In this document: one piece after another, positions 1,230-23,015 of the stretch
Numbering within the stretch: position 1 is the stretch's first letter
Layout: each line of letters begins with the position of its first letter
From: a virus
Length of the DNA stretch: 23,706 nt
IMG/VR virus record: IMGVR_UViG_3300033150_001045
Span: 1-23,706 of that record
Reading direction: 5' to 3' (one strand)
Program-made: the position numbers and the translations under genes
Notes under the pieces: model-generated
What the model saw: the letters and a program-made list of their open reading frames with translations, nothing else
Databases searched by the model: none
What the model was told of the DNA's origin: nothing

Positions 1230-3559
1230 TTATTATATTCTCCCGAACGCTCTCTTATAACCACCGGAATTCCAAGTTTCAAGGCGAGTTCTTGAACATC
1301 ATCGCGAAGTTTTGGAGAAGTAGTAGTGAAGGAACGAAGTTTGCCATTTTGATAATGACCATCGCCTTTCATCAAAGCTTCAAAGAAAATTTTAATCAGA
1401 TGTGGGCTAAGCTCTTTTATAAATCCCGGAACAAATTTTTCATAGGATTTCCCGAACTGTTTCACGTATTTGAATAATTGTTTTGAACCTATTCGGACAT
1501 ATTTCCCATCATACCAAGCATGAAAGCCCATTCCTTCCACTGAGTTGATTATTTCTTCTACATTTGCGGGGTCTTTCTGCCTTATGTAAATTTCATAGGC
1601 TCCATCTTTTCGCTTTATTGCACAGCCCTCAGCTAAATACCAACCCAAAAATCTTAGGAAGGATTCAATTGGAACTTTCTTTTTAATTCTCGGTTTGAAG
1701 GTTCTTTTCTTCTTAATTTCTGGAATTGGAAGCTCAAACCATTCAGTCTCTTTTCCCTTCCATCTTGCATCTCTCTTTATAGAATAATGCTTCGATGGCG
1801 CTTTCTTAGCTAGTTCTTCGGCATCCATAAATCGATATTTGCTCCAGCGATCTTCCTTTACGAACATATTATGATCCGGCGTTACTAGCAAGTCGATTGG
1901 AGAGTTCTTGCCTCCAAAACGATACATTTTGCCATGATAGAAGTACGAAATTATTCTACTCGGTTCATGATACTCGATCAAACCAGTTTTCGGATTTAGT
2001 GTCGCAATTTCATCCTCGAAAGTTAAGTCTTTGAAAAGTTTAAAGCCATTTCTAGTTAAAACTTCAGTGTCTTCCGAATAACATTTGACTTCGCCTCGAT
2101 TGTTGCCTCCGTCGAAAAGCCATTCGCCGACCAAGCCGCTTGTAACTTCGCCGCCATTATAGAGTGTTTGGATTTCTGGTTCGCTTAAGGCTCGGTTGTA
2201 GATGCGAACCTCGTCGATGATGCCGTCGAAATAATTCCCTAAACTTGGGCTAGACGCTCCGATTCTAAGTGGTTCTGTATCATTAAGGGTTCCTCCAGCA
2301 TAGCTAGAGGATGTTCCTTCCCCGTTTAAATATAGAGTAACAGTTCCTCCTTGAGTCCAAGTTACTGCGACATGCTGCCAGATACCAACTGTTAAATACT
2401 GACCAGCAAAACTTAGTTTACTAACTGTTCCATCCGCTATATTGACTGCAATTCTTTCATTCCAAATATAAAGTCCCCATTCAACTTGACCAGTTAGGGC
2501 GCCATAAGAAAGTTTTCCTGCGATAGTTTTGATGCCAGATATATCATCTGGTTTTATCCATGCCTCAATAGTAAAGCTTCCAATCGAGGATAACGCATTA
2601 CCCATGTCCACGTAGTCATCACCGTCAAATTCTAGCGCCTTTCCATACTTCCCATCTCTTCGCCACGTCGCTTCATGCACCGTTCCATGGTTCTCATTCC
2701 CTGATGTATCCCAGGCCTTCTCGAGTAACTCTTCGCCTTCACCAATAACCGCATCGTCGTCTAAGTCGTAAACAACCTTGAAGTCTGGATAGGTGACGCG
2801 AACGAAGTCGCTGCTGACTGTGCGATTGGTTGTTTCTGATATCGGAAATCTAAATGCGGGGTACGCTGATGATATAGATAGACCAAGCTGAAATGGACTT
2901 CCAGAGACTTCATCAGTTGTTTCATCTACTGAACCAGATCCATCATGATAATAAATATGTGTATGATAATGTCCGCTTTTATTCTCTTCGAATTTTATCC
3001 GGAAGATGCCTTCTGAATTCGAAACTGTTACATAATCTATTAGACGAGTAGTAACGCCATTTATTGTTTTGTCTGCATAAATCTTATAAGAAGAAGTGTC
3101 TGTATGAATCATCACCCGTAGATAGTTACTTGAAACAGGATTAGAACCTTGACCAGTATCCGACAACAAGAATTGAAATTCGAAGGCGTCCGAAGAGGAA
3201 TGGCTTGGCAGTTTGAGATGAATATCAATTATCAAGTCATCGAGTAGTGGTATCTTATTTTGTGAGGAAAGCCAACCACTTCTATATGTTCCTGCCGAAT
3301 TGCTTCTCCCAGTCATCTCTAAGTATCCATTATTTATCTTCGCCGTGAACGGTCCTTGAATACTTCCATCGTCACCTTTTAGCCAGTTGCCTTCTAAGAC
3401 TTCACCGACGAACTCGTCGCCCGACATGAGGGGCACAATTACCTCTGCTCCGTCCTTACCATCTCGAGTAAACGACCAGTCTACTGGGATTTCTTGCGTT
3501 GAAGTTTTAATCTTAATGTTCTTCGTGCCCGGAGGAAGGGCTAACTCATAACTCGGCAC
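1055..3559 (-). CDS. LamG-domain tail adhesin with N-terminal part of a LAGLIDADG intein
   Basis: Probable receptor-binding tail protein. From a GTG start at 3559, residues about 40-250 form a beta-rich, ConA-like region and residues about 283-468 are a classical LamG domain (DTSGNENHGT, ALEFDGDDYVDMGN, FTIEAWIKPD, WQHVAVTWT, FDGIIDEVRIYNRALS). After GEVK at residue 492 an intein begins at Cys493. The GTG at 3559 is chosen because GGAGG (3569-3573) lies 9 nt upstream; longer starts put the ribosome site too close or inside the gene. It overlaps the end of the preceding small gene. The last about 55 codons (below about 1225) are out-of-frame translation after the break and are not real protein; the true continuation is in the next frame down to position 1. 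LamG and fibre assignment: high confidence. Host target unknown. Confidence 0.85.
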   Translation of the reverse strand: MPSYELALPPGTKNIKIKTSTQEIPVDWSFTRDGKDGAEVIVPLMSGDEFVGEVLEGNWLKGDDGSIQGPFTAKINNGYLEMTGRSNSAGTYRSGWLSSQNKIPLLDDLIIDIHLKLPSHSSSDAFEFQFLLSDTGQGSNPVSSNYLRVMIHTDTSSYKIYADKTINGVTTRLIDYVTVSNSEGIFRIKFEENKSGHYHTHIYYHDGSGSVDETTDEVSGSPFQLGLSISSAYPAFRFPISETTNRTVSSDFVRVTYPDFKVVYDLDDDAVIGEGEELLEKAWDTSGNENHGTVHEATWRRDGKYGKALEFDGDDYVDMGNALSSIGSFTIEAWIKPDDISGIKTIAGKLSYGALTGQVEWGLYIWNERIAVNIADGTVSKLSFAGQYLTVGIWQHVAVTWTQGGTVTLYLNGEGTSSSYAGGTLNDTEPLRIGASSPSLGNYFDGIIDEVRIYNRALSEPEIQTLYNGGEVTSGLVGEWLFDGGNNRGEVKCYSEDTEVLTRNGFKLFKDLTFEDEIATLNPKTGLIEYHEPSRIISYFYHGKMYRFGGKNSPIDLLVTPDHNMFVKEDRWSKYRFMDAEELAKKAPSKHYSIKRDARWKGKETEWFELPIPEIKKKRTFKPRIKKKVPIESFLRFLGWYLAEGCAIKRKDGAYEIYIRQKDPANVEEIINSVEGMGFHAWYDGKYVRIGSKQLFKYVKQFGKSYEKFVPGFIKELSPHLIKIFFEALMKGDGHYQNGKLRSFTTTSPKLRDDVQELALKLGIPVVIRERSGEYNKSMAKGKWSQLNTLEWSMMLRFQIIHYMFEEMERQFGRATATTQTTAIMSLSGFESLT
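1113..2083 (-). mobile_element. LAGLIDADG intein in the tail adhesin gene (frame-broken)
   Basis: The element starts at Cys1 (codon 2081-2083) and ends at the terminal Asn (1113-1115), followed by an extein Cys. Visible splicing blocks are A (CYSEDTEVLTRNG), B (LVTPDHNMF with TxxH), F (VYDVTVPNHTLYV) and G (VWSGN then C). The two LAGLIDADG helices are FLGWYLAEG at intein residues about 145-153 and FFEALMKGDGHY at about 233-244. The penultimate residue is Gly instead of the usual His. The total of 971 nt is not a multiple of three: the frame changes near 1225 between the endonuclease domain and block F, so self-splicing cannot occur from this sequence as written. The joined extein would read GEVK-CYDTNN. 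Intein identity is secure; activity is doubtful. Confidence 0.9.
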
Positions 3560-3809
3560 TTTCACCTGCCTCCAAATCAACACCCATCATTTTCTCGAGT
3601 TTCTCGCGCAAGCTTGTCTCGATTAAATTCATTCTCTTAATGGCGACTACATTCTTAATTTTCCTTTTTATTTCTTCTTCCGTCATATTATTCAGCAAGC
3701 TAGCTGACACTTTATGCGTTATTTCGTGCAAGTTGCCATCTGAATCATCGAATTCAATAGTTATCACTGCTGCGTCTAATTCTCGAGCTAAACTTTTAAT
3801 TCTTATCAT
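3546..3809 (-). CDS. Small tail-operon protein, unknown function
   Basis: An 87-aa acidic protein starting ATG with GGTGA about 7 nt upstream. Residues 1-35 look like alternating beta strands (AAVITIEFDDSDGNLHEIT) and residues 40-75 like a charged amphipathic helix (NMTEEEIKRKIKNVVAIKR, then TSLREKLEKMMG). No signal peptide, membrane segment or known motif was seen. Its last codons overlap the start of the LamG adhesin gene, whose ribosome binding site lies inside this gene, so the two are probably translationally coupled. A tail-tip or fibre-assembly accessory role is possible from position alone. Confidence 0.6.
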   Translation of the reverse strand: MIRIKSLARELDAAVITIEFDDSDGNLHEITHKVSASLLNNMTEEEIKRKIKNVVAIKRMNLIETSLREKLEKMMGVDLEAGESAEL

Positions 3810-10348: not shown

Positions 10349-11140
10349 TTAACCTCCTTTGTTTCTTCTTATGTCCGATAGGACCATAAACTTTTCGTAT
10401 TTCGATTTCATGAATAATGAAGCGCCTTCATATAACCAAGATAGAATTGTTTTCGCTTCGTTTGAATAATACCTCAATCTATAAACTCCTCCTCGAAAGT
10501 TTATTTTCTTTTCTCTCAATTTGAGTTTGCAACGTAATTTCTTTTCCAAGCTCTTTATAAACGCTTCCGAGCCAGAAGCAAAGTAAATAATTAGTTGATT
10601 GTTTCGTTTCGAAATGTGAAGTCCCCCATCGCCATCAAAAAATCCACGAATAAAATCTTTCAAATAATCAATTGGAACTTTTGGAAATTTGAGAGTAGAG
10701 GATTTCTTTTCAGTCAATCCAATCTCTTCGAGTTTTTCTTTAATTTTCTTAGAAGTAAATTCCAAAACATAAAGTGTTTTTCTATTTTCTCGATTGAATT
10801 CATAAATCGGATTTTCAGCTTGTAAAGCCAATTTTATAAGACGAATTATTTCATATTCGCAATTCGAAAAATTAATCCTGTTTCTATCTTTCAGACAACC
10901 ATCGGCGCAGAAAAAGCCTAAGATATAAGCCATCTCTTCATTCCATTCTTCAAAAAAGTTATGATTCACTTCGTATTTCCAAGGATGTTTTCTTAAGTTT
11001 AGTGTATAAGCTTTTTGTCGTATCGCTCTTCGGCTATGACGACCTATTACTTTACAGAGTTCATCAAGCGAGTTAGTGGCATACTCTGACTTCAATAACT
11101 GAATTTCTTCTGGTAACCAGGCTCTTTTCGCTACACTCAT
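10349..11140 (-). CDS. Free-standing LAGLIDADG homing endonuclease with N-terminal HTH
   Basis: A 263-aa protein. Residues 5-52 form a SANT/Myb-like helix-turn-helix (WLPEEIQLLKSEYATNS, then VIGRHSRRAIRQKAYTLNLR) that probably binds DNA. Two LAGLIDADG helices follow: MAYILGFFCADGC at about 70-82 and LKDFIRGFFDGDGGL at about 160-174, each with the acidic residue needed for metal binding. ATG AGT at 11140 has GAGGTG 7 nt upstream. There is no intein or intron context: no splice blocks surround it and it is a separate gene. Its last codons contain the ribosome site of the tail tube gene, so it is inserted inside the structural operon and probably cleaves alleles lacking it. It is intact. Confidence 0.9.
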   Translation of the reverse strand: MSVAKRAWLPEEIQLLKSEYATNSLDELCKVIGRHSRRAIRQKAYTLNLRKHPWKYEVNHNFFEEWNEEMAYILGFFCADGCLKDRNRINFSNCEYEIIRLIKLALQAENPIYEFNRENRKTLYVLEFTSKKIKEKLEEIGLTEKKSSTLKFPKVPIDYLKDFIRGFFDGDGGLHISKRNNQLIIYFASGSEAFIKSLEKKLRCKLKLREKKINFRGGVYRLRYYSNEAKTILSWLYEGASLFMKSKYEKFMVLSDIRRNKGG

Positions 11141-11253: not shown

Positions 11254-11562
11254 TTGGATCGAGTTTGTCGCAATTGCGGTTCTCGCAAAAATATTGAAGT
11301 TCACTGGATAGCTCATTCTCCGGAGCAATTCATTCCGCTTTGTTCTCGCTGTCATAGACTCGAACACGAACGAAACCCGAGTTTAGATATCGAGTTTCCA
11401 GACTGGAAAATTACAACTATCTCGATTCGAACAGGAACAAAAATTCGTCTTCAACGCTTCGGATTCTTCGGCGAAAAGTGGAACGAGTTAATAAATCGTC
11501 TTCTCGATGAAGTTGAGGAATATAGAAAAATAAAGGAGCGTTATCCTCATCTTTTCTCTTGA
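11254..11562 (+). CDS. HNH-like zinc protein fused to RHH-like domain
   Basis: The only plus-strand gene, 102 aa. Residues 5-38 show an HNH/zinc pattern, CRNCGS then VHWIAH, LCSRCHRLEH, that is C-x2-C and C-x2-C pairs with several His. Residues about 55-95 (ISIRTGTKIRLQRFGFFGEK, then WNELINRLLDEVEEY) strongly resemble archaeal VapB-like/RHH antitoxin domains (beta strand, helix, conserved Gly, helix). The HNH family's usual HH pair appears as HW, so nuclease activity is uncertain; it may be only DNA-binding. The start is TTG with a weak GGGTTAGG site. It converges with the minus-strand gene at 11547, overlapping by 16 nt. Confidence 0.7.
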   Translation: MDRVCRNCGSRKNIEVHWIAHSPEQFIPLCSRCHRLEHERNPSLDIEFPDWKITTISIRTGTKIRLQRFGFFGEKWNELINRLLDEVEEYRKIKERYPHLFS

Positions 11563-12455: not shown

Positions 12456-12863
12456 TCAAAAATTACCATTTAATATGCCTTGGATCCATTTCGCATATTG
12501 CTCTTCAAAACTCTTCCATGTTAAGCCCATAACGCTTTCTCGAGCCTTTTTCTTCATTTCAGCAAGCTCGTTTCGATGTTCGTAAAGAAATTTTATTCGA
12601 TCTGCAATCTCTGAAACATTGCCTGAATCAATCACGAAGCCATTAGTTCCATTCCAAACATGCTGCTTCGTTCCAGTTGTCTTACTTATAATTACGGGCA
12701 AACCACAAGCCAGCGCCTCATAAGTAACTAGTGGGCATCCGTCTTCTATTGCGGGCAAGACAAATACATCGGAGTTTTGATAAGTTTCGATAATATCGTC
12801 AACCCATTCAACAACTCGAGTGTTTGGAGGTAGTTCAACTTGTTCTGGTATTGTTCCAAGCAC
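12456..12863 (-). CDS. GT4 glycosyltransferase, C-terminal fragment
   Basis: C-terminal nucleotide-sugar-binding half of a GT-B fold enzyme: PPNTRVVEWVDDIIETYQNS, then DVFVLPAIEDGCPLVTYEAL (the acidic donor-binding EDG...E motif) and ACGLPVIISKTTG. It ends with the usual closing helix (SFEEQYAKWIQGILNGNF). The formal start has no ribosome site and lies in overlap with the N-terminal fragment; real coding starts at about GTIPEQVEL. Upstream fragment and this one together lack about 20 residues between the AW and LPPN positions of the family, so the break is a deletion with frame change. Probably inactive unless the sequence is wrong here. Confidence 0.8.
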   Translation of the reverse strand: MLGTIPEQVELPPNTRVVEWVDDIIETYQNSDVFVLPAIEDGCPLVTYEALACGLPVIISKTTGTKQHVWNGTNGFVIDSGNVSEIADRIKFLYEHRNELAEMKKKARESVMGLTWKSFEEQYAKWIQGILNGNF

Positions 12864-13476
12864 TTAGCAAATAAATTAATCCTTTCCTTATCCAGTTTCT
12901 TCCAATAAATAATATTCGAAACTTCTCATCTAGTTTCTTTCCAGGAACAAACTTCTCTGTGTCAACACCAAATGGAATTATCTGAGCTTTCGATGCAAGT
13001 CCGTGTTTTTTCAAACTCTCGAAAACAAATTCTGAAGGGCATAAAATATGCGTCGCGAGCTTCATTTCTCGAATAATTTTCTCTTTTAGAAGTGGATGAA
13101 TAATCATTGTAGGTCCAATCGCTTTTTCGATTAATTCTTCCTGTTCTTGGACATGAGCACTGAAGCAATTAACTACCTTGTATTCAAAGTTCAAGCTCTG
13201 CATTGTAAATAAACTGTGCGATAACCAACTCTGTAATAATTTGGATGATTGAGCAACTAAAGAAGTTACTGAGTCAAACATAAGGTCCTGGCTCGCATAG
13301 TCAGCTTTAACCGTTGGTATAATCGTTACATATTCTTTGAACTCTGGAACAGTATTCGCAACATAGGCTCTTTTTAACAAATTCTTCTCGATAAGAGGTT
13401 TAACTTGATGAAGCGCAGTTTTTCCAATTCCGGCCCCGCCCAACTCAACTTTCCCAGTATAGATAACATCAACCAT
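12835..13476 (-). CDS. GT4 glycosyltransferase, N-terminal fragment
   Basis: N-terminal acceptor domain and start of the donor domain of a GT-B enzyme. It begins DVIYTGKVELGGAGIGKTAL, with the Gly-rich loop of the family, and later shows ATHILCPSEFVFESLKKHGL, IIPFGVDTEKFVPGK and FRILFIGRNWIRKGLIYLLS. The open frame ends four codons after AWNNT, where the C-terminal fragment takes over in another frame. ATG at 13476 overlaps the previous stop and has GAAGGAG about 9 nt upstream. It probably transfers a sugar from a nucleotide donor in a surface or virion glycan pathway; substrate not predictable. Confidence 0.82.
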   Translation of the reverse strand: MVDVIYTGKVELGGAGIGKTALHQVKPLIEKNLLKRAYVANTVPEFKEYVTIIPTVKADYASQDLMFDSVTSLVAQSSKLLQSWLSHSLFTMQSLNFEYKVVNCFSAHVQEQEELIEKAIGPTMIIHPLLKEKIIREMKLATHILCPSEFVFESLKKHGLASKAQIIPFGVDTEKFVPGKKLDEKFRILFIGRNWIRKGLIYLLSAWNNTRTS

Positions 13477-14362
13477 TTCTCAAAACTCCTTCTAATCTTT
13501 TTGTTAATAAATGATCTCGCATACATCTCTTATATCCATTCTCCGCAATTCGTTCTCGTTCATCGTCGTGTTCCAGATAATACTTGATTTTTTCTCGAGC
13601 TTCTTCAATAGTATTAAATAGAACATACTCCTTGTTCGGCTCGAAACAATTATTTAGTCCTTCTCCTTCTTCGCTAATATAACAGCGCTTACAGGCAGTA
13701 ACCTCGAAAGCTCGAATACTCGGCGTGTATGGCCAATCATAATGAAAATTTATCACAACTTTCGCGCCACTAATTGCTTTTGATAATTCGAGGAAATATT
13801 TCGGTCCGCCAGCATAATACGGAAAATCTTCTGGCCAACCATTACCCCAAATTTTCATTCTAACAGAAAGACCATTGATTAACTTCCGGAAACTTTTAAT
13901 TCTTTGTGGATGTGCTGTACCAACGAAGACGCAATCGGTCTTGTATTTCCAGAGGTCGTCTCCCTTCAACTCCACCTCGCGATGGACCGGTGGGTATGCC
14001 CCCGGATACAAGGTATCATATCCCCTACCGAATTCTGTCATGTAAACTTCATCAAAGCTGTCCTTAATCTGTTCAAAGCGAGCATATCTAGTCCCAGCAT
14101 CCGGAAACCACAAAATTTTTCTGCATGATAACAAATCAAGAACGTTTTTTCTCATCCATTCAGCTTTTATCGCGAATAAAACATCGGGTTCCCAAGCAAG
14201 CGCACTTTTTATGAATCTATAGTTCATCTCCTCTTCGCCGAACTGCGCAAGAGTTTTTCGATAATCAAAGGCGAAGACTTGATGTCCCAAATCTCGCAAA
14301 GCGTAATAAACTAATACTCCGTATTCTCCAAAGCTGAAACTACTCAATAAGAAAATTTTCAT
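13469..14362 (-). CDS. Glycosyltransferase, CgeB/Glyco_trans_1_2-like
   Basis: A complete 297-aa protein. The N-terminus KIFLLSSFSFGEYGVLVYYA is a Rossmann start; PDVLFAIKAEWMRKNVLDLL, YDTLYPGAYPPVH and CVFVGTAHPQRIKSFRKLI follow. The C-terminal donor site is WPYTPSIRAFEVTACKRCYI then SEEGEGLN, typical of the PF13524-type transferases related to CgeB/DUF3880. ATG at 14362 lies inside the end of the preceding zinc-ribbon gene and the stop overlaps the next start, so it is in the middle of a coupled series. There is no frame break. The substrate is unknown. Confidence 0.85.
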   Translation of the reverse strand: MKIFLLSSFSFGEYGVLVYYALRDLGHQVFAFDYRKTLAQFGEEEMNYRFIKSALAWEPDVLFAIKAEWMRKNVLDLLSCRKILWFPDAGTRYARFEQIKDSFDEVYMTEFGRGYDTLYPGAYPPVHREVELKGDDLWKYKTDCVFVGTAHPQRIKSFRKLINGLSVRMKIWGNGWPEDFPYYAGGPKYFLELSKAISGAKVVINFHYDWPYTPSIRAFEVTACKRCYISEEGEGLNNCFEPNKEYVLFNTIEEAREKIKYYLEHDDERERIAENGYKRCMRDHLLTKRLEGVLRNG

Positions 14363-14561
14363 GCCTTATCTCCTCGATAATTATTTCCTCAACATCTCCA
14401 GTTGCACCATTTGGCCTTCCAGCTAGCAGAACTCGCTTTCCATCAGTCGTTGTTGTTTCAGCCCATTTCCCATTCTCGAAATGTTCTACTAAACAACATT
14501 TAACGCAGTATCGCATAACATTGTTTATATATTTCCATTTATGAAGTCCTAGCTTGCACAT
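14340..14561 (-). CDS. Small zinc-ribbon-like protein
   Basis: A 73-aa protein from ATG at 14561 (GAGGAAA upstream); a longer start at 14600 would have no good ribosome site. The N-terminus CKLGLHKWKY is followed by RYCVKCCLVEHFENGKWAE, giving C, H and C-x2-C ligands reminiscent of DUF1660-type phage zinc ribbons (C-x3-GHKW, then CxxC). The remainder (TTTTDGKRVLLAGRPNGATG) is unassigned. It overlaps both neighbours, the methyltransferase before and a glycosyltransferase after it. Role unknown. Confidence 0.68.
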   Translation of the reverse strand: MCKLGLHKWKYINNVMRYCVKCCLVEHFENGKWAETTTTDGKRVLLAGRPNGATGDVEEIIIEEIRHENFLIE

Positions 14562-14973
14562 TTTCTTTTCCTCTTGCTCCAAGTGCGAGAATATTTCCAT
14601 ACCAGTCCAAAAACAAGGCTTTGCAAATTTCTATTTGACGTTCATTCCATATCCCTTTTCGAAGTTGGTGATAGCCTTTACATCTCCACATACTAATTTT
14701 GTCGAAGTTCAGCGCCTTTAGTAATCCGTACAGTGCCTCGAACGACCAAAACGTTTTGTGTTGAGGGTCTTTAAACAGATAATCGAAGCAAAAGACGTTC
14801 GGGGTCAAAATGAGCATTTTGCTCTTCTTTTTCATCAAATTCTTACTTATAAATTCTAACCAATTGATAACGTGTTCGAAATCTAGATGCTCTAACAAAT
14901 TGAAGATTATTTTCTCCATCATATCCAGCTGGTAGCAAAACATCGTGATACACCCAGCCATTCCCGCAGCCAA
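14539..14973 (-). CDS. SAM-dependent methyltransferase, C-terminal fragment
   Basis: Second half of a class I methyltransferase: KIIFNLLEHLDFEHVINWLE contains the post-motif (N/D-x2-EH), followed by SKMLILTPNVFCFDYLFKDP and HKTFWSFEALYGLLKALNF, then an aromatic C-terminal part. Coding starts near 14930, not at the formal start, where the frame overlaps the N-terminal fragment. Between motif I in that fragment and NLLEHL only about 22 residues remain; the family normally has about 45. So a block of about 25 residues including motif II is missing and the frame changes by the remainder. Probably non-functional as written. Confidence 0.75.
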   Translation of the reverse strand: MAAGMAGCITMFCYQLDMMEKIIFNLLEHLDFEHVINWLEFISKNLMKKKSKMLILTPNVFCFDYLFKDPQHKTFWSFEALYGLLKALNFDKISMWRCKGYHQLRKGIWNERQIEICKALFLDWYGNILALGARGKENVQARTS

Positions 14974-15100
14974 GGTCTAAAACTCGATCCTTCGGGTTTA
15001 ATTCATTGATCAATATTACGCTTTCGTGTGGAATTGTTGGTAGCTTCCATATTAACCCCAATTTGTTATGATATTTCATGATTTCGGAATAGGTTATCAT
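14843..15100 (-). CDS. SAM-dependent methyltransferase, N-terminal fragment
   Basis: First 60 residues of a class I methyltransferase: motif I is RVLDLGCGNGWVYHDVLLPA, the glycine-rich SAM-binding loop, preceded by PHESVILINELNPKD. After GYD the frame is no longer coherent and the C-terminal fragment continues in another frame. ATG at 15100 overlaps the stop of the 49-aa gene before it (ATGA). In glycosyltransferase clusters such enzymes often methylate sugars; that role here is inference from neighbours. Confidence 0.75.
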   Translation of the reverse strand: MITYSEIMKYHNKLGLIWKLPTIPHESVILINELNPKDRVLDLGCGNGWVYHDVLLPAGYDGENNLQFVRASRFRTRYQLVRIYK

Positions 15101-15246
15101 TCATTCATTCTCCTCAAAATCTTCTTTATTTCACAGAGGTCTTTTTCCAATTCTGTGAGTATTGCCTCGTTTTCATATACGTTAACCACTAACCGGGTAA
15201 GTTTCGATCCAAATTCTTTGATTATATCCTCAATTATTTCACTCAT
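15097..15246 (-). CDS. Small helical protein, unknown function
   Basis: A 49-aa protein (SEIIEDIIKEFGSKLTRLVV, then ILTELEKDLCEIKKILRRMN), almost entirely amphipathic helix, probably a coiled coil. Its start and stop both overlap neighbours by ATGA, between a glycosyltransferase and the methyltransferase, so it is a translated member of the series despite its size. No family recognised; a partner or scaffold for neighbouring enzymes is possible. Confidence 0.62.
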   Translation of the reverse strand: MSEIIEDIIKEFGSKLTRLVVNVYENEAILTELEKDLCEIKKILRRMNE

Positions 15247-16199
15247 TCAATCACGCTCCTTAAAGCATCCATGGCAATTTGATTGCGTTCCTCGGCTACG
15301 GAGCAAGCAGTTTTATAAACTATTTCGCCCCAACCACTTCGTTTCAGATCACTTCGTATTAATTCGTGAAGCTTAAGCGCAATCTCGTTTGGATCGTCGA
15401 AATTATCAATGCGTAGATCATTCCATTCAGTTTTATCAGGTATCCACTCGATAGTCTTGCTGAATAAACACGGCACTTTCATCACAAAATGATCGAATAA
15501 ACAATAATCGAAGGTTTCGCTATAGCTTACCTTCAGACCAACCTTCATAGTTTGTATCGACCTGAAATAACTTTCCTTGCTCATCCAACCCATATCGACA
15601 TAACGTAAACCTACTAAATCGGCAAAGTCTTGGAGCATTTTCGGCATCCCATTCAAATGAAGCAAAACTCCGGCTAATCTAGCCGCGAGTATTTGATTCA
15701 GCATGTTTTTCCTTGTTCCAGCTGGATTGTATAAACTTACCCAATCCTCACCTTTCTGTAAACTTGGATCTCGAAACTTTTCCACGCTTTCTAAATCATA
15801 TGTATTCGGCAAGTACTTCACTTTCTCAGCTCCAAATATTCTTTTAAAAGCTTTAGTAATTCTCTTGGTCGGGATGAATAAGTAATCAAGCATTCTATTT
15901 TCCAGTGCATCTCGAATTTGCCACAAAAAGGAAACTTCTATCATTTCAGGCGAAAAGCCAACTTGACCCACTGGACTCGTCCAAAGCAGACCCTTCTTGA
16001 TATCATAAGCCATTAAGCGTTTCAACGCACGGTAGTAATCATAATCCCAAGCTCCAAAAATGATTAGTTTTTTGCCCTCGATAGTTTTCTTGCTTACCGT
16101 CTGACTATGCTCAGTCATCCCCGTTGTCACGGCAAGATGTTCAAATTGGCTCTTCACTCCGGGAAATGCATCGGGACAAACAGTGAGTATTTCTTTCAT
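15243..16199 (-). CDS. Glycosyltransferase, GT-B fold, divergent
   Basis: A 318-aa protein with a GT-B layout: N-terminal half (KKLIIFGAWDYDYYRALKRL, then LLWTSPVGQVGFSPEMIEVS), middle linker VKYLPNTYDLESVE, and a C-terminal half with WVSLYNPAGTRKNMLNQILA, RYVDMGWMSKESYFRSIQTM and VSYSETFDYCLFDHFVMKVP. The SETFDY...D segment occupies the donor-site position of GT4 enzymes. ATG at 16199 overlaps the previous stop and has GGAG 8 nt upstream. The frame is intact. The N-terminal 45 residues are not obviously of the family, so the exact start domain is uncertain. Substrate unknown. Confidence 0.75.
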   Translation of the reverse strand: MKEILTVCPDAFPGVKSQFEHLAVTTGMTEHSQTVSKKTIEGKKLIIFGAWDYDYYRALKRLMAYDIKKGLLWTSPVGQVGFSPEMIEVSFLWQIRDALENRMLDYLFIPTKRITKAFKRIFGAEKVKYLPNTYDLESVEKFRDPSLQKGEDWVSLYNPAGTRKNMLNQILAARLAGVLLHLNGMPKMLQDFADLVGLRYVDMGWMSKESYFRSIQTMKVGLKVSYSETFDYCLFDHFVMKVPCLFSKTIEWIPDKTEWNDLRIDNFDDPNEIALKLHELIRSDLKRSGWGEIVYKTACSVAEERNQIAMDALRSVIE

Positions 16200-17268
16200 A
16201 TTATCTTCTCCAACGCCTTTAAATATTTAGCACCAACAACTTCAATCGACCAATTTTTCTTGACATGTTCTCGTCCAGCTTTCGCGACTTTCGGATTTTC
16301 CAATGCTTTCACAATTGCCCATCCAAGCATGTCTCGATCACCTTGCGCCACAAAGATGGTGTCGTCACACTTCCAATATTCTGGTAAAGCTCCAGCAATA
16401 TTCGCAACAACCTGTTTTTCACATAACAAAGCCTCGCCACATACCGCGCCCCATTGCTCAATCCAAAATGGTGTATCGAGTGAAGTATAAACTATTACAT
16501 CTGCGGTCGCGTAAACTTCTGGCAAACTTTCATAGGACTTCCATGGCTCCCATAAAACTGTCTTCCCATAATCCGGATGCTTCTTGATTTTCTCGAGTTC
16601 GTTTCCCCGCCCACCAACAAACATCAATTCGACGTTCTCGATCTCCTTTTTCACAACTTGATCGTAGGCTATTAAAATACCCTGAATGTCCTTTTCTGGC
16701 ACCAAGCGCCCAACGTAGAGGATTCTTTTTCGCTTCTTATTCGCTGCTGGCAGTGGCCTGAATAATTCGGGATCTAAACCACTTTGTGGCAAAACAATTC
16801 CTTCCGTAACTCCTTTAATTTGAAGCAAACGTCCAGCTTCGCTATTCCCTGCTATTGCTAAGTCAGCTTCGTTCAGCACTTCGCGTTCTATGCTACGATA
16901 AAAGGCATTGTAAACTTTCGGGATGTTTTCCCATGTGAAAACGGCCCATGGCACTCTAAAGAGCTTTGCATAACTCATACACTCGAAAGCGAATAAACTC
17001 GGTGGCTCTTCAAAGCAAACCAGAGCATCCGGCTTGAAAGTTTCTATCATCTCGAGTAACTGCGGCATTCTATAATGAAAAATACCTTTGAAACTTGTTA
17101 ATCCAAGCGGTACTCGCATGAAATGCTTCTTCTTCACGACATCATATTTCTCGTCGTTCCATTGTCTCGGACCGCATAACAAAACATCGTGCTCTTGCTC
17201 TGCGATCCATTCCCACATCCGTTGCTGACGATAATGATTACCGAATGACCCGTAACTAATATCCTCAT
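16196..17268 (-). CDS. GT4 glycosyltransferase with N-terminal frame break
   Basis: A GT-B enzyme of about 355 aa: SFGNHYRQQRMWEWIAEQEH, PQLLEMIETFKPDALVCFEE, VLPQSGLDPELFRPLPA, KRILYVGRLVPEKDIQGILI and the donor site FWIEQWGAVCGEALLCEKQV. The best start is ATG at 17268 with GAGGTG 5 nt upstream, which reads RILVTGHS, a typical GT4 opening. That frame then shifts, because the enzyme continues as SFGNHYRQQ in another frame. The alternative start at 17299 (EKKINLRCENED) has no typical GT N-terminus. So only the first about 10 codons are affected. The catalytic part is otherwise complete. Confidence 0.83.
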
Positions 17269-17277
17269 TTTCACACC

Positions 17278-17457
17278 TCAGATTAATTTTCTTTTCCATA
17301 TCATGGCTTCAGTAATCAATGTGTGCTTCAGGTAACAATCCAAACATATTCGACGACGAGGAAACATGTAATCATCGGGGTGTCTCATGGTCTTTCTTAC
17401 TACTTTGCCGCAATCATCGCATATTTCGTATCCTTTCAATGCATAAGCGATTTCCAT
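17278..17457 (-). CDS. Small zinc-ribbon protein
   Basis: A 59-aa protein missed by length cut-offs. EICDDCGKVV and RRRICLDCYLKH provide two C-x2-C knuckles 24 residues apart, a classic zinc ribbon. ATG at 17457 directly follows the stop of the previous gene (TAAATG), and its stop precedes the next glycosyltransferase start by 9 nt, with the GAGGTG site of that gene spanning the end. It is an operon member; a nucleic-acid or protein-binding role is possible. A second, different Cys-rich small protein occurs at 14340-14561. Confidence 0.72.
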   Translation of the reverse strand: MEIAYALKGYEICDDCGKVVRKTMRHPDDYMFPRRRICLDCYLKHTLITEAMIWKRKLI

Positions 17458-17694
17458 TTATTCCACCGCTGCCCATCCTTTCACATAAACAAACCCATCG
17501 AGTTCTAGTGTCTCTATCTTGATTTCTTCAATCGATTTCCCGGCTCTCAAGGCTCTATTCTGTACCGCTTCCTTAGCTCGCATGTTCGCAAGTCCAGGGT
17601 TTTTCTTATAGCTTGACTCTTCCAAACGATAGCAAATCGCTATAATCGGCTTCCCGGTCTTATTCCTCAAAAATTCTTTGAGTTTATCTTCCAT
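17458..17694 (-). CDS. Small protein, unknown function
   Basis: A 78-aa protein from ATG at 17694 with GGTGTGAT upstream (a GTG start at 17703 is also open). LKEFLRNKTGKPIIAICYRL, then MRAKEAVQNRALRAGKSIEE and TLELDGFVYVKGWAAVE. Mixed alpha/beta composition without transmembrane segments. It lies between another unknown gene and the zinc-ribbon gene inside the glycosyltransferase series. No family recognised. Confidence 0.6.
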   Translation of the reverse strand: MEDKLKEFLRNKTGKPIIAICYRLEESSYKKNPGLANMRAKEAVQNRALRAGKSIEEIKIETLELDGFVYVKGWAAVE

Positions 17695-17699
17695 TCTTA

Positions 17700-18014
17700 T
17701 CACACCAATAACGGATTTTCGTCACTCCTTTGATTTATGCCATAAACCTCGGAGAAATAATTCAACCAATGATTGTAAACTTCAAGCAGTATCGAATTAC
17801 GCATCACTTCGTCTGGCACACTTTTCAAACTCGTCATTAGTAAATCAGAAGCAATTATTACATCTTCCTTGAGACATGATCTCCATCCACACCAACTTTC
17901 GCTTTCACTCGAATGGATAATTATACCTTGAAATTTGTCCTCCTCAATATCCTTCGCGAGCTGTTTCACTCTTTTCAGGATTTCTTCCTTTTTCATTTCA
18001 ACAGTCATCTCCAT
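17700..18014 (-). CDS. Small mostly helical protein, unknown function
   Basis: About 104 aa; ATG at 18014 chosen, but in-frame ATGs at 18008 and 17996 are also possible and a TTG at 18029 overlaps the previous stop. It starts with a charged helix (KKEEILKRVKQLAKDIEEDK), has a Cys/Trp segment (ESWCGWRSCLKEDVIIASDL) and ends LEVYNHWLNYFSEVYGINQR. It is acidic and probably soluble. The CGWRSC spacing could bind metal but is a weak signal. Co-translated with the glycosyltransferase before it. Confidence 0.58.
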   Translation of the reverse strand: MEMTVEMKKEEILKRVKQLAKDIEEDKFQGIIIHSSESESWCGWRSCLKEDVIIASDLLMTSLKSVPDEVMRNSILLEVYNHWLNYFSEVYGINQRSDENPLLV

Positions 18015-18021
18015 CAACCCG

Positions 18022-19164
18022 CTATTCAATTAACCTCGTATATAAATTTATAAATTCCTCAGCCGCTCTTGTGGGGTTAAGCTCCTCACGTGCCCATTTC
18101 ATTCCTTCGCGAGCGAGTTTTTCAGCTTCAACTTTATCCATGAATAAATCAATCATGCAATCCGCTAATTCTTTATAATTTCTCGGCTCAAATAAAACAT
18201 GCCCGAATTTACTTGTCTCCGGTATACTTCCTATTCGACTCGCGATTACTGGCGTGCCACAACATAAACTCTCTCCTCGAATTAATTCGAAAGTTGCTTC
18301 CCAAATACTAGCGACTATAGTAAACCACGATTGAGTGTATAATCTCCTTAAGTCTTCAAGTTTCATTCGAGACAATAAAGCAACATTTCGTAGTTTGTAA
18401 TACCTCAACATTTGGCCGAGTTGTGGTAACCAGCGTTGGTCGCCTTGCATTATGAGATGAGCTTGTGGCAGTCTTTTCGAAACTATTTTCCATGCTTTAG
18501 CAACCACCCACGCGCCCTTGTGCGGTATGTAGTTGTTTATCGTGCAACACTGTAATTTCTTCGATACGTTGGGTTCCGGATAGAAATTCTTTATATCTAC
18601 CCAAGGAGTTATAACTTCCCATTTTCCAACCAAAAAATCATTTCTCTCGAAAATATCTATCATTCGTTTACTCGCGGCTACTCCGACATCACACTCTTGC
18701 AAATCGTTTCTATACTGTCCAGTTAGCCATGTATTATACCACCCAACACAACGGGAGCATTTATCGAAATCTATCTCATAACAAATCTCAGAGTCAATGC
18801 CGTGAAACACATCCATCATAAAATGTTGTGGACAAAGCGCTCTATAGTCATGAGCTACATAGATAACCGGTATATTCATTTTCTTCGCAATTATAACAGC
18901 TTTTGTTCCAATTTCTTGGAAATTATGTTGCTGCATTATCTCGATTTTAAATTTCTTGATTATCTTCCCAGTTATTTTAGGAATCATTCCTCGAGTTGTC
19001 TGCCAGAAATGTATTTTGCCTTCTTGTTTATGTTTCGGCTCACCTAAATACAAAAAATGAATAGCATCGATCGCTGGATGCTTTTGGAACTCTTCGAGTA
19101 ATAAACGTTGCCGAACTTCAGCACCACCAGCTCTTCTATATGGGTTTACAAGCAGAATATTCAT
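18022..19164 (-). CDS. GT4 glycosyltransferase
   Basis: An intact 380-aa GT-B enzyme. The N-terminus NILLVNPYRRAGGAEVRQRL has the Gly-rich acceptor loop; a Cys-containing segment (DSEICYEIDFDKCSRCVGWY), common in archaeal and bacterial GT4 enzymes, follows. Linker EVITPWVDIKNFYPEPN leads into the donor domain (CCTINNYIPHKGAWVVAKAW, LPQAHLIMQGDQRWLPQL), with the catalytic-site region WEATFELIRGESLCCGTPVI then ASRIGSIPE. ATG at 19164 overlaps the previous stop. The closing helix is LNPTRAAEEFINLYTRLI. Best-preserved enzyme of the cassette; substrate unknown. Confidence 0.88.
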   Translation of the reverse strand: MNILLVNPYRRAGGAEVRQRLLLEEFQKHPAIDAIHFLYLGEPKHKQEGKIHFWQTTRGMIPKITGKIIKKFKIEIMQQHNFQEIGTKAVIIAKKMNIPVIYVAHDYRALCPQHFMMDVFHGIDSEICYEIDFDKCSRCVGWYNTWLTGQYRNDLQECDVGVAASKRMIDIFERNDFLVGKWEVITPWVDIKNFYPEPNVSKKLQCCTINNYIPHKGAWVVAKAWKIVSKRLPQAHLIMQGDQRWLPQLGQMLRYYKLRNVALLSRMKLEDLRRLYTQSWFTIVASIWEATFELIRGESLCCGTPVIASRIGSIPETSKFGHVLFEPRNYKELADCMIDLFMDKVEAEKLAREGMKWAREELNPTRAAEEFINLYTRLIE

Positions 19165-19529
19165 TTCCTCAACTCCGGCACAAGTTCTCGAAGTAATTTA
19201 TCAAAAGCTGGTATCACGGCTTTCTCCCAATCATATTCGTTTCGAGCTTTCTCGACGGCTCGTTTACTGAATTTATCATACAAATCAGGGTTTTCATATA
19301 ACTCCTTGAATTTAGCCGCCGCATCTTCCGGATCTGCCACACAAGGTATTCCAGCCGACATGCTCTGTAAACTTGTCAGGCCAAATCCCTCGCCTCCAGT
19401 TAAACGATCATGCACCCAGCCCATGTTGTAAACCCTATTGAGTTCCTCTTCACCAACCCCGAGCATGAAGTCACGCATTTTACTTGGCGGAGGGAAAAAT
19501 ACATCTTTTCCAACCTTCAATAGTCCCAT
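19161..19529 (-). CDS. GT4 glycosyltransferase, C-terminal fragment
   Basis: Last part of the first enzyme of the cassette: GLLKVGKDVFFPPPSKMRDF, ELNRVYNMGWV, LTGGEGFGLTSLQSMSAGIP and a final helix. The GEGFGLTSLQS motif is the donor site, but the second Glu of the usual E-x7-E is Gln. The formal start lies in overlap with the middle fragment, where REGWDY ends; a stretch of perhaps 8-10 residues normally between those parts looks absent. So this is the tail of a protein split into three frames. Confidence 0.78.
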   Translation of the reverse strand: MGLLKVGKDVFFPPPSKMRDFMLGVGEEELNRVYNMGWVHDRLTGGEGFGLTSLQSMSAGIPCVADPEDAAAKFKELYENPDLYDKFSKRAVEKARNEYDWEKAVIPAFDKLLRELVPELRK

Positions 19530-19933
19530 CCTTCGCGATCTCGCTTATCCATATGCAAGTACAGTACAGTATCCGGAAACCATTTATGGAATATCTTAAA
19601 TGCTTGAAGTGTTTGTGGTAATTTCTTCCGTCTCTGATTACGATCAATTCGAATTATCACTTTCTTGTCGGGTGGCAGTCCATATTCGATCTTTGCTTCG
19701 CGCTTTTCTTCTCCACTCAATGGTTTGAAAATTTTTGTGTTCACCCCATGCGGGATATAATAATTTCTTATCCCAGCTTCCGTGCTTAGGTTATGACCGA
19801 ATTTGGAAAAGCAAACTGGAATATCAATTCTTCGAAGCATTCGCTTAATATCATCTGTTATTGGCACACCGTCAATCGGATACCAGTAAACCCAAGTTTG
19901 TGGGATATCGCTTTTCCACATCCAAGATAGCAT
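19517..19933 (-). CDS. GT4 glycosyltransferase, middle fragment
   Basis: Middle part of the split enzyme: IPQTWVYWYPIDGVPITDDI, RRIDIPVCFSKFGHNLSTEA, YIPHGVNTKIFKPLSGEE (interdomain linker) and KKVIIRIDRNQRRKKLPQTL, VLYLHMDKRDREGWDY. This is typical of the GT-B family whose members read IPHGVDT and RNQxRKxLP. Its frame starts to make sense at GDFWMLSWMW (about 19950), upstream of the formal ATG, and stops at 19517. Both ends meet other frames carrying the neighbouring parts of the same protein. Confidence 0.8.
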   Translation of the reverse strand: MLSWMWKSDIPQTWVYWYPIDGVPITDDIKRMLRRIDIPVCFSKFGHNLSTEAGIRNYYIPHGVNTKIFKPLSGEEKREAKIEYGLPPDKKVIIRIDRNQRRKKLPQTLQAFKIFHKWFPDTVLYLHMDKRDREGWDY

Positions 19934-20172
19934 CCAGAAGTCGCCAGCAAGGCTCGCTGTCCAAACTGCGATCCGCCAGTATTTGGTAATGCTTCAAAAT
20001 GTAATTTCCGGTTATGGAAATAAACCGGTGGTCCCATGGGCTGACCAAAGGTTTGCCATCCGAGATAACCTACTTCATGACCAACTTTCCCAAGCCCATC
20101 AGCTAGCCCGCGCATTGCAGTAGCGAAACCACTGATCGTATGCCAGCTATCCGCCATTACAAGCAGTTTCAA
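19858..20172 (-). CDS. GT4 glycosyltransferase, N-terminal fragment
   Basis: N-terminal part of the first cassette enzyme: KLLVMADSWHTISGFATAMR, then LGKVGHEVGYLGWQTFGQPM and ALPNTGGSQFGQRALL. After RALLAT the frame loses sense and the protein continues in another frame at GDFWMLSW. The family usually has about 12-18 residues between those points (a strand such as PDVLITL), absent here, so this is a deletion with frame change. The start is TTG at 20172, just after the stop of the RHH gene, with GGGAATGA upstream. Confidence 0.8.
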   Translation of the reverse strand: MKLLVMADSWHTISGFATAMRGLADGLGKVGHEVGYLGWQTFGQPMGPPVYFHNRKLHFEALPNTGGSQFGQRALLATSGCYLGCGKAISHKLGFTGIRLTVCQ

Positions 20173-20173
20173 G

Positions 20174-20311
20174 TCATTCCCACTCTTTTATTCCACTTGC
20201 ATAAAACTTTATCATTTCCTCGAGTGTTTCACGGATGCTAGGTTTATCCCATCTGATTTTCAGATAGACCAGCTTTTTATGCTGCTCATCAGTAATTGCT
20301 ATGGTTTTCAT
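20174..20311 (-). CDS. RHH/antitoxin-like small protein heading the glycosyltransferase cassette
   Basis: A 45-aa protein: KTIAITDEQHKKLVYLKIRW, then SIRETLEEMIKFYASGIKEW, the beta strand and two helices of archaeal VapB-like/RHH antitoxins. ATG at 20311 is preceded by GGTAAGT and by a TATA box 33 nt upstream. No toxin gene follows; the next gene is a glycosyltransferase one base after its stop. It is best read as the regulator of the cassette that it heads, an inference from position. Short length excludes a catalytic role. Confidence 0.75.
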   Translation of the reverse strand: MKTIAITDEQHKKLVYLKIRWDKPSIRETLEEMIKFYASGIKEWE

Positions 20312-20343
20312 ACTTACCACTAAGACTATTATCTCGAATACAA

Positions 20344-20352
20344 TTTTATAAA
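20344..20352 (-). promoter_or_regulatory. TATA box for the glycosyltransferase cassette
   Basis: TTTATAAAA on the minus strand lies in the 51-nt gap between the tail terminator gene and the RHH gene, 33 nt before its ATG. This gives the cassette a start of transcription of its own inside the structural operon. Confidence 0.6.
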
Positions 20353-20362
20353 TTTATTGTTT

Positions 20363-20797
20363 TCAACTTCCCGAGGAATAAAGCATAGCACGAAAAGATA
20401 ATGTTTTGCGATAGGCCTTCATTGGTAAGCGCTCGTCTTCTATTACGTCATTTTCTCCCGTTAGTCCAAGAATATTAACTCCAGAAGCCTTGAGTGTCTC
20501 GCGATAATCTTGAAGCAAAACTTTCTTTACTTCTTTCGAGAGTTCATTTTTCTGTGCTTTCCCACTCGCGAAAACATCTATTTGAAGCAAAGGATAATAA
20601 ACAACATACCCTTTCCGCGCTTCTTCACTACTCGACCCAACATGAAAAACAGAAATTTGCGGCCAGCGATATTTCCTCAGCCGTTCATCGATCCAATCGT
20701 TATCTATCCAATAAGACCCAGATGATCTGATCTCCGGATCTATGACATTCATTCTCAAACAGCGCGTTACTATTTCGAGTCCTTCATCAATATCCAA
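20363..20797 (-). CDS. Tail terminator / tail completion-like protein
   Basis: A 144-aa protein: DIDEGLEIVTRCLRMNVIDP, WPQISVFHVGSSSEEARKGY, VVYYPLLQIDVFASGKAQKN, KEVKKVLLQDYRETLKASGV and YRKTLSFRAMLYSSGS. The pattern (helix, strand pair with LQIDVFA, long helix, final strand with FR) is that of phage tail completion/terminator proteins (HK97 gp11-like), which cap the tail tube and join it to the head. The start is TTG at 20797 with a strong GGGGGTG site 7 nt upstream. It is the last head-tail gene before the accessory insert. Confidence 0.7.
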   Translation of the reverse strand: MDIDEGLEIVTRCLRMNVIDPEIRSSGSYWIDNDWIDERLRKYRWPQISVFHVGSSSEEARKGYVVYYPLLQIDVFASGKAQKNELSKEVKKVLLQDYRETLKASGVNILGLTGENDVIEDERLPMKAYRKTLSFRAMLYSSGS

Positions 20798-20926
20798 TTT
20801 TAAGCACCCCCGATTATTGTTGGCCGAATCTGGATCATCTGTCTTGACTTTTTCAATTCAATTCATCCAAGTCAATTTGATCGAGTAGATTAACTTAACC
20901 CCAAGTCCCTTTAACAGCAGCTTCTC

Positions 20927-21244
20927 TTACCACGCTTTCATAAGCCTGCTTCCAAATTTCCATTCATTTTTACTGGTACCATTGCGTCGCGTATCAGCAC
21001 CAACTTCCCACTCAATAGGTTCCATCGTTTTCCAATTACCAGAATTTTTCTGATAGTAATGACTCTTCATTAGCCTTCCAGTTCGACTTTTCCAAGGATG
21101 ATTTTGCTTACAGTAAGCCCAAAGCGTTACTGCCCATTCGCCTAATACTTTATCCAATGCTCTATAAGCTTTAATCGAAGTTTTTGGTAATTCGGCGATT
21201 AATTTCTCCCAACCCTCGAGTTCCACTGAAAACTTTATGCCCAT
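20927..21244 (-). CDS. HK97 gp10-like neck / tail-completion protein with damaged C-terminus
   Basis: A 105-aa protein: KFSVELEGWEKLIAELPKTS, KAYRALDKVLGEWAVTLWAY and HPWKSRTGRLMKSHYYQK, the HP-x-RTG-L motif typical of gp10-like phage proteins (PF04883). ATG at 21244 overlaps the stop of the upstream gene (TAATG); the TTG at 21259 is not needed. The frame ends early at EWKFGSRLMKAW. Immediately after, another frame reads WKQAYESVVREAAVKGTWG then a TAA (20895-20897) and VNLLDQIDLDELN before a TGA (20853-20855), which looks like the original C-terminus. So the gene probably ran to about 20853 and has a frameshift near 20960 plus a stop. Role: head-tail joining. Confidence 0.72.
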   Translation of the reverse strand: MGIKFSVELEGWEKLIAELPKTSIKAYRALDKVLGEWAVTLWAYCKQNHPWKSRTGRLMKSHYYQKNSGNWKTMEPIEWEVGADTRRNGTSKNEWKFGSRLMKAW

Positions 21245-21666
21245 TACTCTTCGCTCCAAATGATTCGAAAGCTCATATCAGTCGCTGACGCGCTTTTGTT
21301 TTTGCTTTCAATTAAGAGTGTGATAACGAGCCGCTTGTATAAGTCACTCCTTGTTTCACGGTCATTGACGAATTATTACTCTTTCCGAGGTGCAAGTTTA
21401 GTATTGGAACATCGGATCCTCCACTCGCGTCAGTGTGTCGATAAATATCAATCCATGATTGACCGAATGACGATGTTTCAATCGCTTTTATTTCAGCATT
21501 TTTCTGCGAGTTGCTTGGGTTTAAAAATAATATTCGAACTCCACTGTCCGGAGCTACGCTCTCAAATCTATGCGATGCTTGAAAAAGCTTCACCAGCGAC
21601 TATCTTATTTTTGAAAGTTTGTTCGACATTTAGACTTCGGTTCCTATGTGAGTAAACTCTTGACAT
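21244..21666 (-). pseudogene. Beta-rich virion structural protein, broken by two frame changes
   Basis: ATG at 21666 has a perfect AGGAGG site and opens SRVYSHRNRSLNVEQTFKNK then IVAGEAFSSIA and a TAG. From about 21600 the protein continues in the next frame (SHRFESVAPDSGVRILFLN, IKAIETSSFGQSWIDIYRHT, ILNLHLGKSNNSSMTVKQGV) until a TAA after YTSGSLSHS. The end returns to the first frame: ITLLIESKNKSASATDMSFR then IIWSEE, stopping at 21244 in overlap with the next start. The pattern fits a widespread family of phage head/neck structural proteins whose members end SATD-x-SIRIxWxEE. That family has some 25-30 residues between YTSGSL and the last part, missing here. The TTTTT run at 21598-21602 is the probable first lesion. 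Confidence 0.72.
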
Positions 21667-21705
21667 TTATTTCCCTCCTGTTTATTTCTTATCTCCTCAA
21701 CTTAT

Positions 21706-22113
21706 TTAATTTTCCGCACTTTCAGCGTTTCCGTTGGAAGGTTCAGCTAAATCGAAAATTATCTTACGCCCTTCCATATCGCAAATCCTTTTTCCTGCTT
21801 CATAATAATACTCAGCCATTAAACTTCGTCCCATAAACTCCGATCCGCGATCTAATGTCACGTCTCGAGTATAATAGTAAAGCGGAGCATGTTCGCCAGC
21901 GAGCCTTTGCATAGCATAATACGCAGCGAAATTTGTTGCTGCGTCTCTCGCCCACATCTCCAAGTTTGCTCCGCTTGCCGGAGCGGTCCCTAAAAACTTC
22001 TTCATTAAAGCTTCGCCGCGACTAACACAAAACGCCATTACTCCACTCGAAAGTGTATCCTCAGAAATACCAGTCGCGCTTCGTACAAAACTAATGGATG
22101 TATAATCTCCCAT
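21706..22113 (-). CDS. Head-tail connector (gp6-like) protein
   Basis: A 135-aa helical protein directly after the capsid gene: DYTSISFVRSATGISEDTLS, VMAFCVSRGEALMKKFLG, NLEMWARDAATNFAAYYAMQ and a long C-terminal helix (MAEYYYEAGKRICDMEGRKI). Such four-helix proteins form the adaptor ring below the portal. ATG at 22113 is preferred over GTG at 22122 because GGTGA (22123-22127) is 9 nt above it and overlaps the GTG region. No break seen. Confidence 0.7.
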   Translation of the reverse strand: MGDYTSISFVRSATGISEDTLSSGVMAFCVSRGEALMKKFLGTAPASGANLEMWARDAATNFAAYYAMQRLAGEHAPLYYYTRDVTLDRGSEFMGRSLMAEYYYEAGKRICDMEGRKIIFDLAEPSNGNAESAEN

Positions 22114-22147
22114 AGTTTCCACTCACCATCATAATTAAAACTATTCG

Positions 22148-22186
22148 AAAAAATAAGGGTATTGGTTGCTTAGCGTCTGACTAAGC
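22148..22186 (-). terminator. Hairpin plus T-run after the capsid gene
   Basis: On the minus strand GCTTAG (22181-22186) and CTAAGC (22168-22173) form a 6-bp stem with a 7-nt loop, followed after about 14 nt by TTTTTT (22148-22153). It lies 10 nt after the capsid stop. This could reduce read-through and thus favour capsid over downstream proteins; archaeal termination mostly needs only the T-run. The short stem limits confidence. Confidence 0.4.
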
Positions 22187-22195
22187 TACAAGGGC

Positions 22196-23002
22196 TTAGT
22201 ACGTCGACGCGAAGCATATAGCGGAAGGTGCTAGTACAGCGGGCACATACCTTTCGAAGAAGACTTGTCCTTGCAGATCCCTTACTTCCTCGACGTAATC
22301 CTCACTCCGCAAATCTTCCCTAAGGAACAAAGCTCCAGCCTGGTCCGAATCCAGAATAAGGACGTGGCCTTCGCTTATCTGCGGAGTTGGAATAACTTTC
22401 AAACCGAGGATAGTTCCGACGTCGTATTTGGAAATGTCTCCGCCTTTCTCCTTGTGAACGAATTCATCAAGTCCAGCGAGTTTGCCGTAGTCAAGCGGGT
22501 TGCAAACCAGTATATCCGGAAGATAATTAGCAGCTCGAACTTTTCCGATCATTTCGCTTATATCGCCGATCTCGTCAGCGTTCGCTCCGCCCCAAGCTCC
22601 GGTTATCTGGAAAGTAATTCCCTTGTTCGCCTTTAGTTCCTCGATTATATCCAAAGTCTCTTTAAGAGCAATTTGCTCGCCAGCTTTTCTGGCTTGTCTT
22701 CGCACAAGGTCCCAGCGTGAGTCTGCAACCATTTCATGAGTTATCTGTGTTCTATAACCGATCTTCTTGTATGTAGCAGTTGTCTCGGTGTAGTCTGGTT
22801 GAAGTATTGGAACTTCAGCTGATTCTCCGACCTCAACTGCAGCGGGCCATGATCCTTCTTTCACGATTTTCACAGAGTCGCCAGAATCCATCTTCACAAC
22901 AGGAAGTATCTGGCGTCCGACTGCTTCCGCCTCTTTAGTCTCAACTATCTCATCGTAAATAACTTCCGCAATTAATGCCGCTTCTGCTGATGTAAGGGTC
23001 AT
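22196..23002 (-). CDS. Major capsid protein, HK97 fold
   Basis: A 268-aa capsid protein. Features of the HK97/linocin-type capsid family: TSAEAALIAEVIYDEIVETK (N-arm helix), VKIVKEGSWPAAVEVGESAE, TATYKKIGYRTQITHEMVAD (E-loop/P-domain), DILVCNPLDYGKLAGLDEFV, GTILGLKVIPTPQISEGHVL and LFLREDLRSEDYVEEVRDLQ then FFERYVPAVLAPSAICF, the classic end of the A-domain. The start at 23002 (ATG) is preferred over GTG 23011, because GAGGTG (23011-23016) covers the latter and is 8 nt above the former. No protease part is fused; cleavage or scaffold functions should be encoded upstream. It is intact. Confidence 0.9.
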   Translation of the reverse strand: MTLTSAEAALIAEVIYDEIVETKEAEAVGRQILPVVKMDSGDSVKIVKEGSWPAAVEVGESAEVPILQPDYTETTATYKKIGYRTQITHEMVADSRWDLVRRQARKAGEQIALKETLDIIEELKANKGITFQITGAWGGANADEIGDISEMIGKVRAANYLPDILVCNPLDYGKLAGLDEFVHKEKGGDISKYDVGTILGLKVIPTPQISEGHVLILDSDQAGALFLREDLRSEDYVEEVRDLQGQVFFERYVPAVLAPSAICFASTY

Positions 23003-23015
23003 TTCATTCACACCT

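Follow-up and report, generated by a model that had tools for sequence, protein, structure and literature searches.

Frame changes in two adjacent genes of a virion gene cluster are almost certainly an artefact of assembly

Programmed ribosomal frameshifting and bypassing occur in virion genes. Metagenome scaffolds whose pieces were joined flush, or from which the gaps were stripped, are a type of assembly artefact. Where deletions arise naturally, substitutions are expected nearby and short repeats are often present at the ends. Here we consider two adjacent genes that both change reading frame, a gene of the phrog_5335 family and a gene resembling HK97 gp10-like or Neck1 (tail completion) proteins. 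They lie on the minus strand of a virus record 23,706 bases long, which is considered in full and referred to as the window. Its letters do contain the frame changes, yet these almost certainly stem from the assembly rather than from biology.

The upstream gene extends on the minus strand from 21666 to 21244. Following its frames through the window yields MSRVYSHRNRSLNVEQTFKNKIVAGEAFS in frame 0, ASHRFESVAPDS up to GSLSH in frame 1 and LLIESKNKSASATDMSFRIIWSEE with the stop codon in frame 0 again. The original prediction of a gene that returns to its first frame over a net 423 nt, a multiple of three, was thus correct as to the letters, as was the predicted TAATG overlap into the gp10-like gene at 21246–21242. 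The gp10-like open reading frame (20927–21259, minus strand) was predicted to lose its C-terminus. It does leave its frame near 20966, and AYESVVREAAVKGTWG is found in another frame. However, VNLLDQIDLDELN, which had been counted to the lost end, sits after the TAA stop of the window, the very stop at which the gene ends in the record of the same virus described below.

Three proteins were used to scan viral contigs, namely the capsid, the gp10-like (in its window form) and the tape-measure protein. Each recovered a single further record of this virus, the same one every time: IMGVR_UViG_3300033141_005269 (77,415 bases, hereafter the longer record), with 99–100% protein identity. Genome contigs scanned with the capsid protein yielded no record, and for 20300–22200 the phage collection offered at the DNA level only a 30-base match (E 0.6), present in two records of a single phage. 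The longer record is the sole comparison record at the DNA level, and its correctness is judged by its open frames and its family matches. Joints between the two records were seen first by blastn and then compared block by block. Exact-match blocks on the longer record cover the window completely (23,706 bases), with no substitutions and 14 joints. At 13 of these the window lacks between 1 and 102 nt held by the longer record (91, 91, 43, 28, 102, 12, 1, 101, 34, 44, 28, 67 and 76 nt; 718 nt in total), and at the remaining one it holds a single extra base. The ends of the longer record carry a 114-nt direct repeat, and the window reads straight through this point (window 14925–15038), so the virus has a circular, circularly permuted or terminally redundant genome.

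In the longer record the upstream gene is intact at 70307–70819, a continuous frame of 513 nt with 170 codons and a stop. Compared with this form the window has one extra base at 21579/21580, seen by blastn and by block comparison, and lacks 91 nt at 21318, a stretch touching residues 117–147 of the 170-aa protein. The sum of both changes is -90 (513 + 1 - 91 = 423), so that the frame of the gene only seems to be restored. The match to phrog_5335 improves from E 1.5e-4 for the middle fragment of the protein as read in the window to E 7.5e-11 for the intact protein, covering residues 9–169. In the phage collection the 170-aa protein gave weak matches only (4 records, best E 2), and a single-sequence AlphaFold2 model of the intact form reached a mean pLDDT of 44.2, too weak for use.

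The gp10-like gene likewise forms one continuous frame of 151 codons in the longer record, ending in KGTWG followed by TAA. Its only joint in the window, at 20965/20966, again lacks 91 nt of the longer record and touches residues 99–129; the last codons of the gene therefore fall into another frame. The stop-start overlap at 21242–21246 (minus strand) is located between the joints, unaltered and identical in both records. Simple compensating frame changes, as first proposed, are accordingly not what the comparison reveals: one base is gained and 91 nt are lost in the first gene, and 91 nt are lost in the second.

Of the 151 residues of the intact gp10-like protein, 5–147 matched phrog_5, a family annotated as 'tail completion or Neck1 protein' (E 4.3e-9), while the window form gave no match to this family at E ≤ 1. 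In Pfam, the intact form scored 14.8 bits against HK97-gp10_like (PF04883; E 0.056) and did not reach the curated cut-off of 21.4. For this reason we do not file it as a member of the Pfam family, and 'gp10-like' denotes a resemblance, one that the PHROG match and gene order support. The assignment as a putative Neck1 protein is carried by the PHROG match. In gene order, the major capsid gene (22196–23011, minus strand; phrog_10, E 1.4e-20) is followed by genes for 138 and 170 aa, the gp10-like gene and a tail-terminator-like gene (20363–20797, minus strand; weak phrog_123 match, E 0.0014). This places the gp10-like gene between head genes and the tail-terminator-like gene; neither the capsid gene nor the tail-terminator-like gene contains a joint. 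Both damaged genes had been called neck genes, a description that suits the gp10-like gene by its phrog_5 match; it is unproven in the case of the upstream gene, whose only match is to a family of unknown function. With 27.7% identity and E 5e-20, the best phage match of the capsid protein comes from a Bacillus phage.

Searching the phage collection with the gp10-like protein gave weak matches in 6 records (best E 0.02). Three proteins from these were aligned; two further records (H5 and H8) were duplicates and one (H3) was unannotated and viewed as an open reading frame only. The aligned proteins are weak tblastn hits with E values of 0.6 to 8, one of them belonging to Haloarcula tailed virus 3, a virus of archaea. 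At the stretch absent from the window, a Y-x-x-x-L-E-x-G block is found in all three and a P-W-x-R-P-A block in two of the three, in a gappy alignment of weak hits. These conserved blocks may be taken as supportive; they add to the phrog_5 profile match and do not replace it. A single-sequence AlphaFold2 model of the intact protein was again too weak for use (mean pLDDT 47.6).

The damage is not special to these two adjacent genes, as the window contains 14 joints. Block comparison with the longer record located the eleven further joints at 19947/19946, 19522/19521, 19339/19338, 17453, 17240/17239, 14912/14911, 14462, 12853/12852, 6258, 5075 and 1203. Nine of them interrupt genes for glycosyltransferases, a methyltransferase, tail proteins and a LamG-domain protein, and those at 17453 and 14462 fall between the genes listed. 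Altogether 12 of the 14 joints are inside genes, spread over eight genes. All genes hit by a joint are continuous in the longer record, where the methyltransferase gene runs over the record end and is open from base 2 to 601.

We also noted the wider gene content. The minus-strand region 12456–20172 encodes, among other open reading frames, five glycosyltransferase-domain proteins and one methyltransferase in their intact forms, flanked by the tail-terminator-like gene and a major-tail-like gene (weak match, E 0.046); as cargo within a virion gene cluster this block is striking. The LamG-domain protein at 1–3583 (minus strand; 1253 codons in the longer record) contains an internal stretch with a LAGLIDADG domain that is intein-like by eye. 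A free-standing LAGLIDADG protein is encoded at 10349–11140 (minus strand), and beside it, at 11254–11562 on the plus strand, lies an open reading frame with C-x-x-C pairs whose HNH-type resemblance was seen by eye only. In the longer record (positions 15000–69000), a Mu-type portal gene lies upstream of genes for two large proteins, one of 741 aa that contains an ATP-dependent DNA ligase domain and one of 1365 aa with a metallo-beta-lactamase domain at its start. An ERCC4 nuclease, a protein resembling PAPS reductases and a DUF2201/VWA protein are encoded elsewhere. As judged from their predicted domains, some of these genes may suit an archaeal host.

We assessed the joints for signs of the process that produced them. 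At the 12 joints with at least 12 nt missing, microhomology amounted to 9 nt in total, compared with a simulated mean of 8.7 nt (95% range 3–17; 2000 simulations). Deletion between repeats or by slippage was ruled out on the basis of this chance level. The missing stretches have an overall GC content of 0.407 versus 0.408 for the window, and dropout by base composition was rejected since overall GC does not differ, although single missing stretches of at least 12 nt range from 0.17 to 0.49. Two of the 14 length changes are divisible by three, which is no departure from chance (P 0.105) and fits random breaks, although it proves nothing alone. For the gap sizes neither a uniform nor an exponential shape was rejected. 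Lander-Waterman estimates gave an effective coverage of about 3.5 and an effective read length of about 177; with two parameters fitted to two numbers they test nothing and show only that ordinary values suffice. No N is present in the window.

Apart from the joints, identity is perfect, and the breaks fall randomly as far as genes and repeats are concerned, as for assembly gaps. Sizes are spread from -1 to 102 nt, and the extra base is naturally read as an overlap of one base that was written out two times; this suggests a single process in which neighboring pieces were abutted across short unsequenced gaps. We infer that the fault lies with the window rather than with the virus. It is highly probable that the virus has both genes intact and that the window consists of correct pieces joined flush, with sequence lost at 13 joints and a base repeated at one. 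Neighboring pieces of one virus would have been laid end to end at 14 places, 13 of which would lose 1–102 nt of real sequence while one would repeat a single base. Two of the joints fall in the upstream gene and a third in the gp10-like gene, and the resulting changes of +1, -91 and -91 move the frame forward, back and forward again. The cause was probably an assembly at low coverage, with scaffold gaps closed flush or placeholder Ns later removed.

Could the window instead represent a defective or decaying form of the virus, in which a large number of small deletions are real? The joints are embedded in otherwise perfect sequence. Each of the patterns spanning the joints at 20965/20966, 21318 and 21579/21580 is present a single time in the window and absent from the examined pieces of the longer record. 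Viral-contig scans with them returned no record for any of the three; as the window's own record is evidently left out of these scans, they say only that no further viral record shares the joints and do not by themselves speak against such a variant. The three patterns thus occur in no other viral contig, while the longer form of the 20965/20966 joint was recovered, from the longer record alone. Moreover, 14 insertions or deletions would stand against no substitution in 23,706 bases, which to our knowledge matches no natural mutation spectrum, and the breaks show microhomology at the chance level and affect eight genes. We therefore consider real deletions very unlikely. A natural population with many short repeat-free deletions in virion and glycosylation genes and no point mutations, for example of defective genomes packaged together with intact ones, seems to us extremely improbable.

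Recoding, by which programmed frameshifting or bypassing would build whole proteins from the split frames, could draw on the regained starting frame of the upstream gene and on the retained TAATG overlap. It is hardly conceivable here, since the longer record encodes each protein in one frame and the codons touching residues 117–147 and 99–129 are absent from the window, where no frameshift can supply them. The same type of break is also found in unrelated genes (glycosyltransferases, the methyltransferase and tail genes). Compensating mutation was rejected on the same grounds as recoding, by the 91 nt absent from each gene and the continuous frames of the longer record. With just two records to compare, the error might conversely be sought in the 77-kb record, into which extra stretches would have been inserted. 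The extra stretches, however, keep genes open and restore family matches, neither of which random insertions would do, and we give this explanation next to no credence. Of the predicted 'recoding or error', error is thus the part that stands: a record free of substitutions has both frames open, and for recoding the coding sequence is absent. There is no call for recoding or an unusual virion at this locus. A corrected sequence with continuous frames, named in the original prediction as evidence against it, is nearly what the longer record provides, albeit as a second record of the virus and not as a corrected sequence from the window's own sample.

The window serves mainly as a warning. It contains 14 hidden joints, and split genes, truncated open reading frames and frame changes should be checked against the longer record before claims are based on them. 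Claims of recoding, pseudogenes or gene loss at the other joints of the window are likely to have a like cause.

In comparison with known systems, the window resembles programmed frameshifting or bypassing in that its frames are adjacent and two genes overlap within a cluster of virion genes, but differs in that coding sequence is missing from it and that the longer record needs no recoding. The intact gp10-like protein is similar to HK97 gp10-like or Neck1 proteins (phrog_5) in its match to the family and in its site between the capsid genes and the tail-terminator-like gene, and it shares the stretch from Y-x-x-x-L-E-x-G to P-W-x-R-P-A with annotated phage proteins. Unlike HK97 gp10-like proteins (PF04883), the intact form stays under the curated cut-off, and the window copy is without the conserved stretch, the sequence for which is missing. 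A flush-joined scaffold differs from the window in one respect, as no Ns are left in the latter and the gap process is one that we infer; the two are alike in piecewise perfect identity, in short losses free of repeats and in frames broken regardless of the gene.
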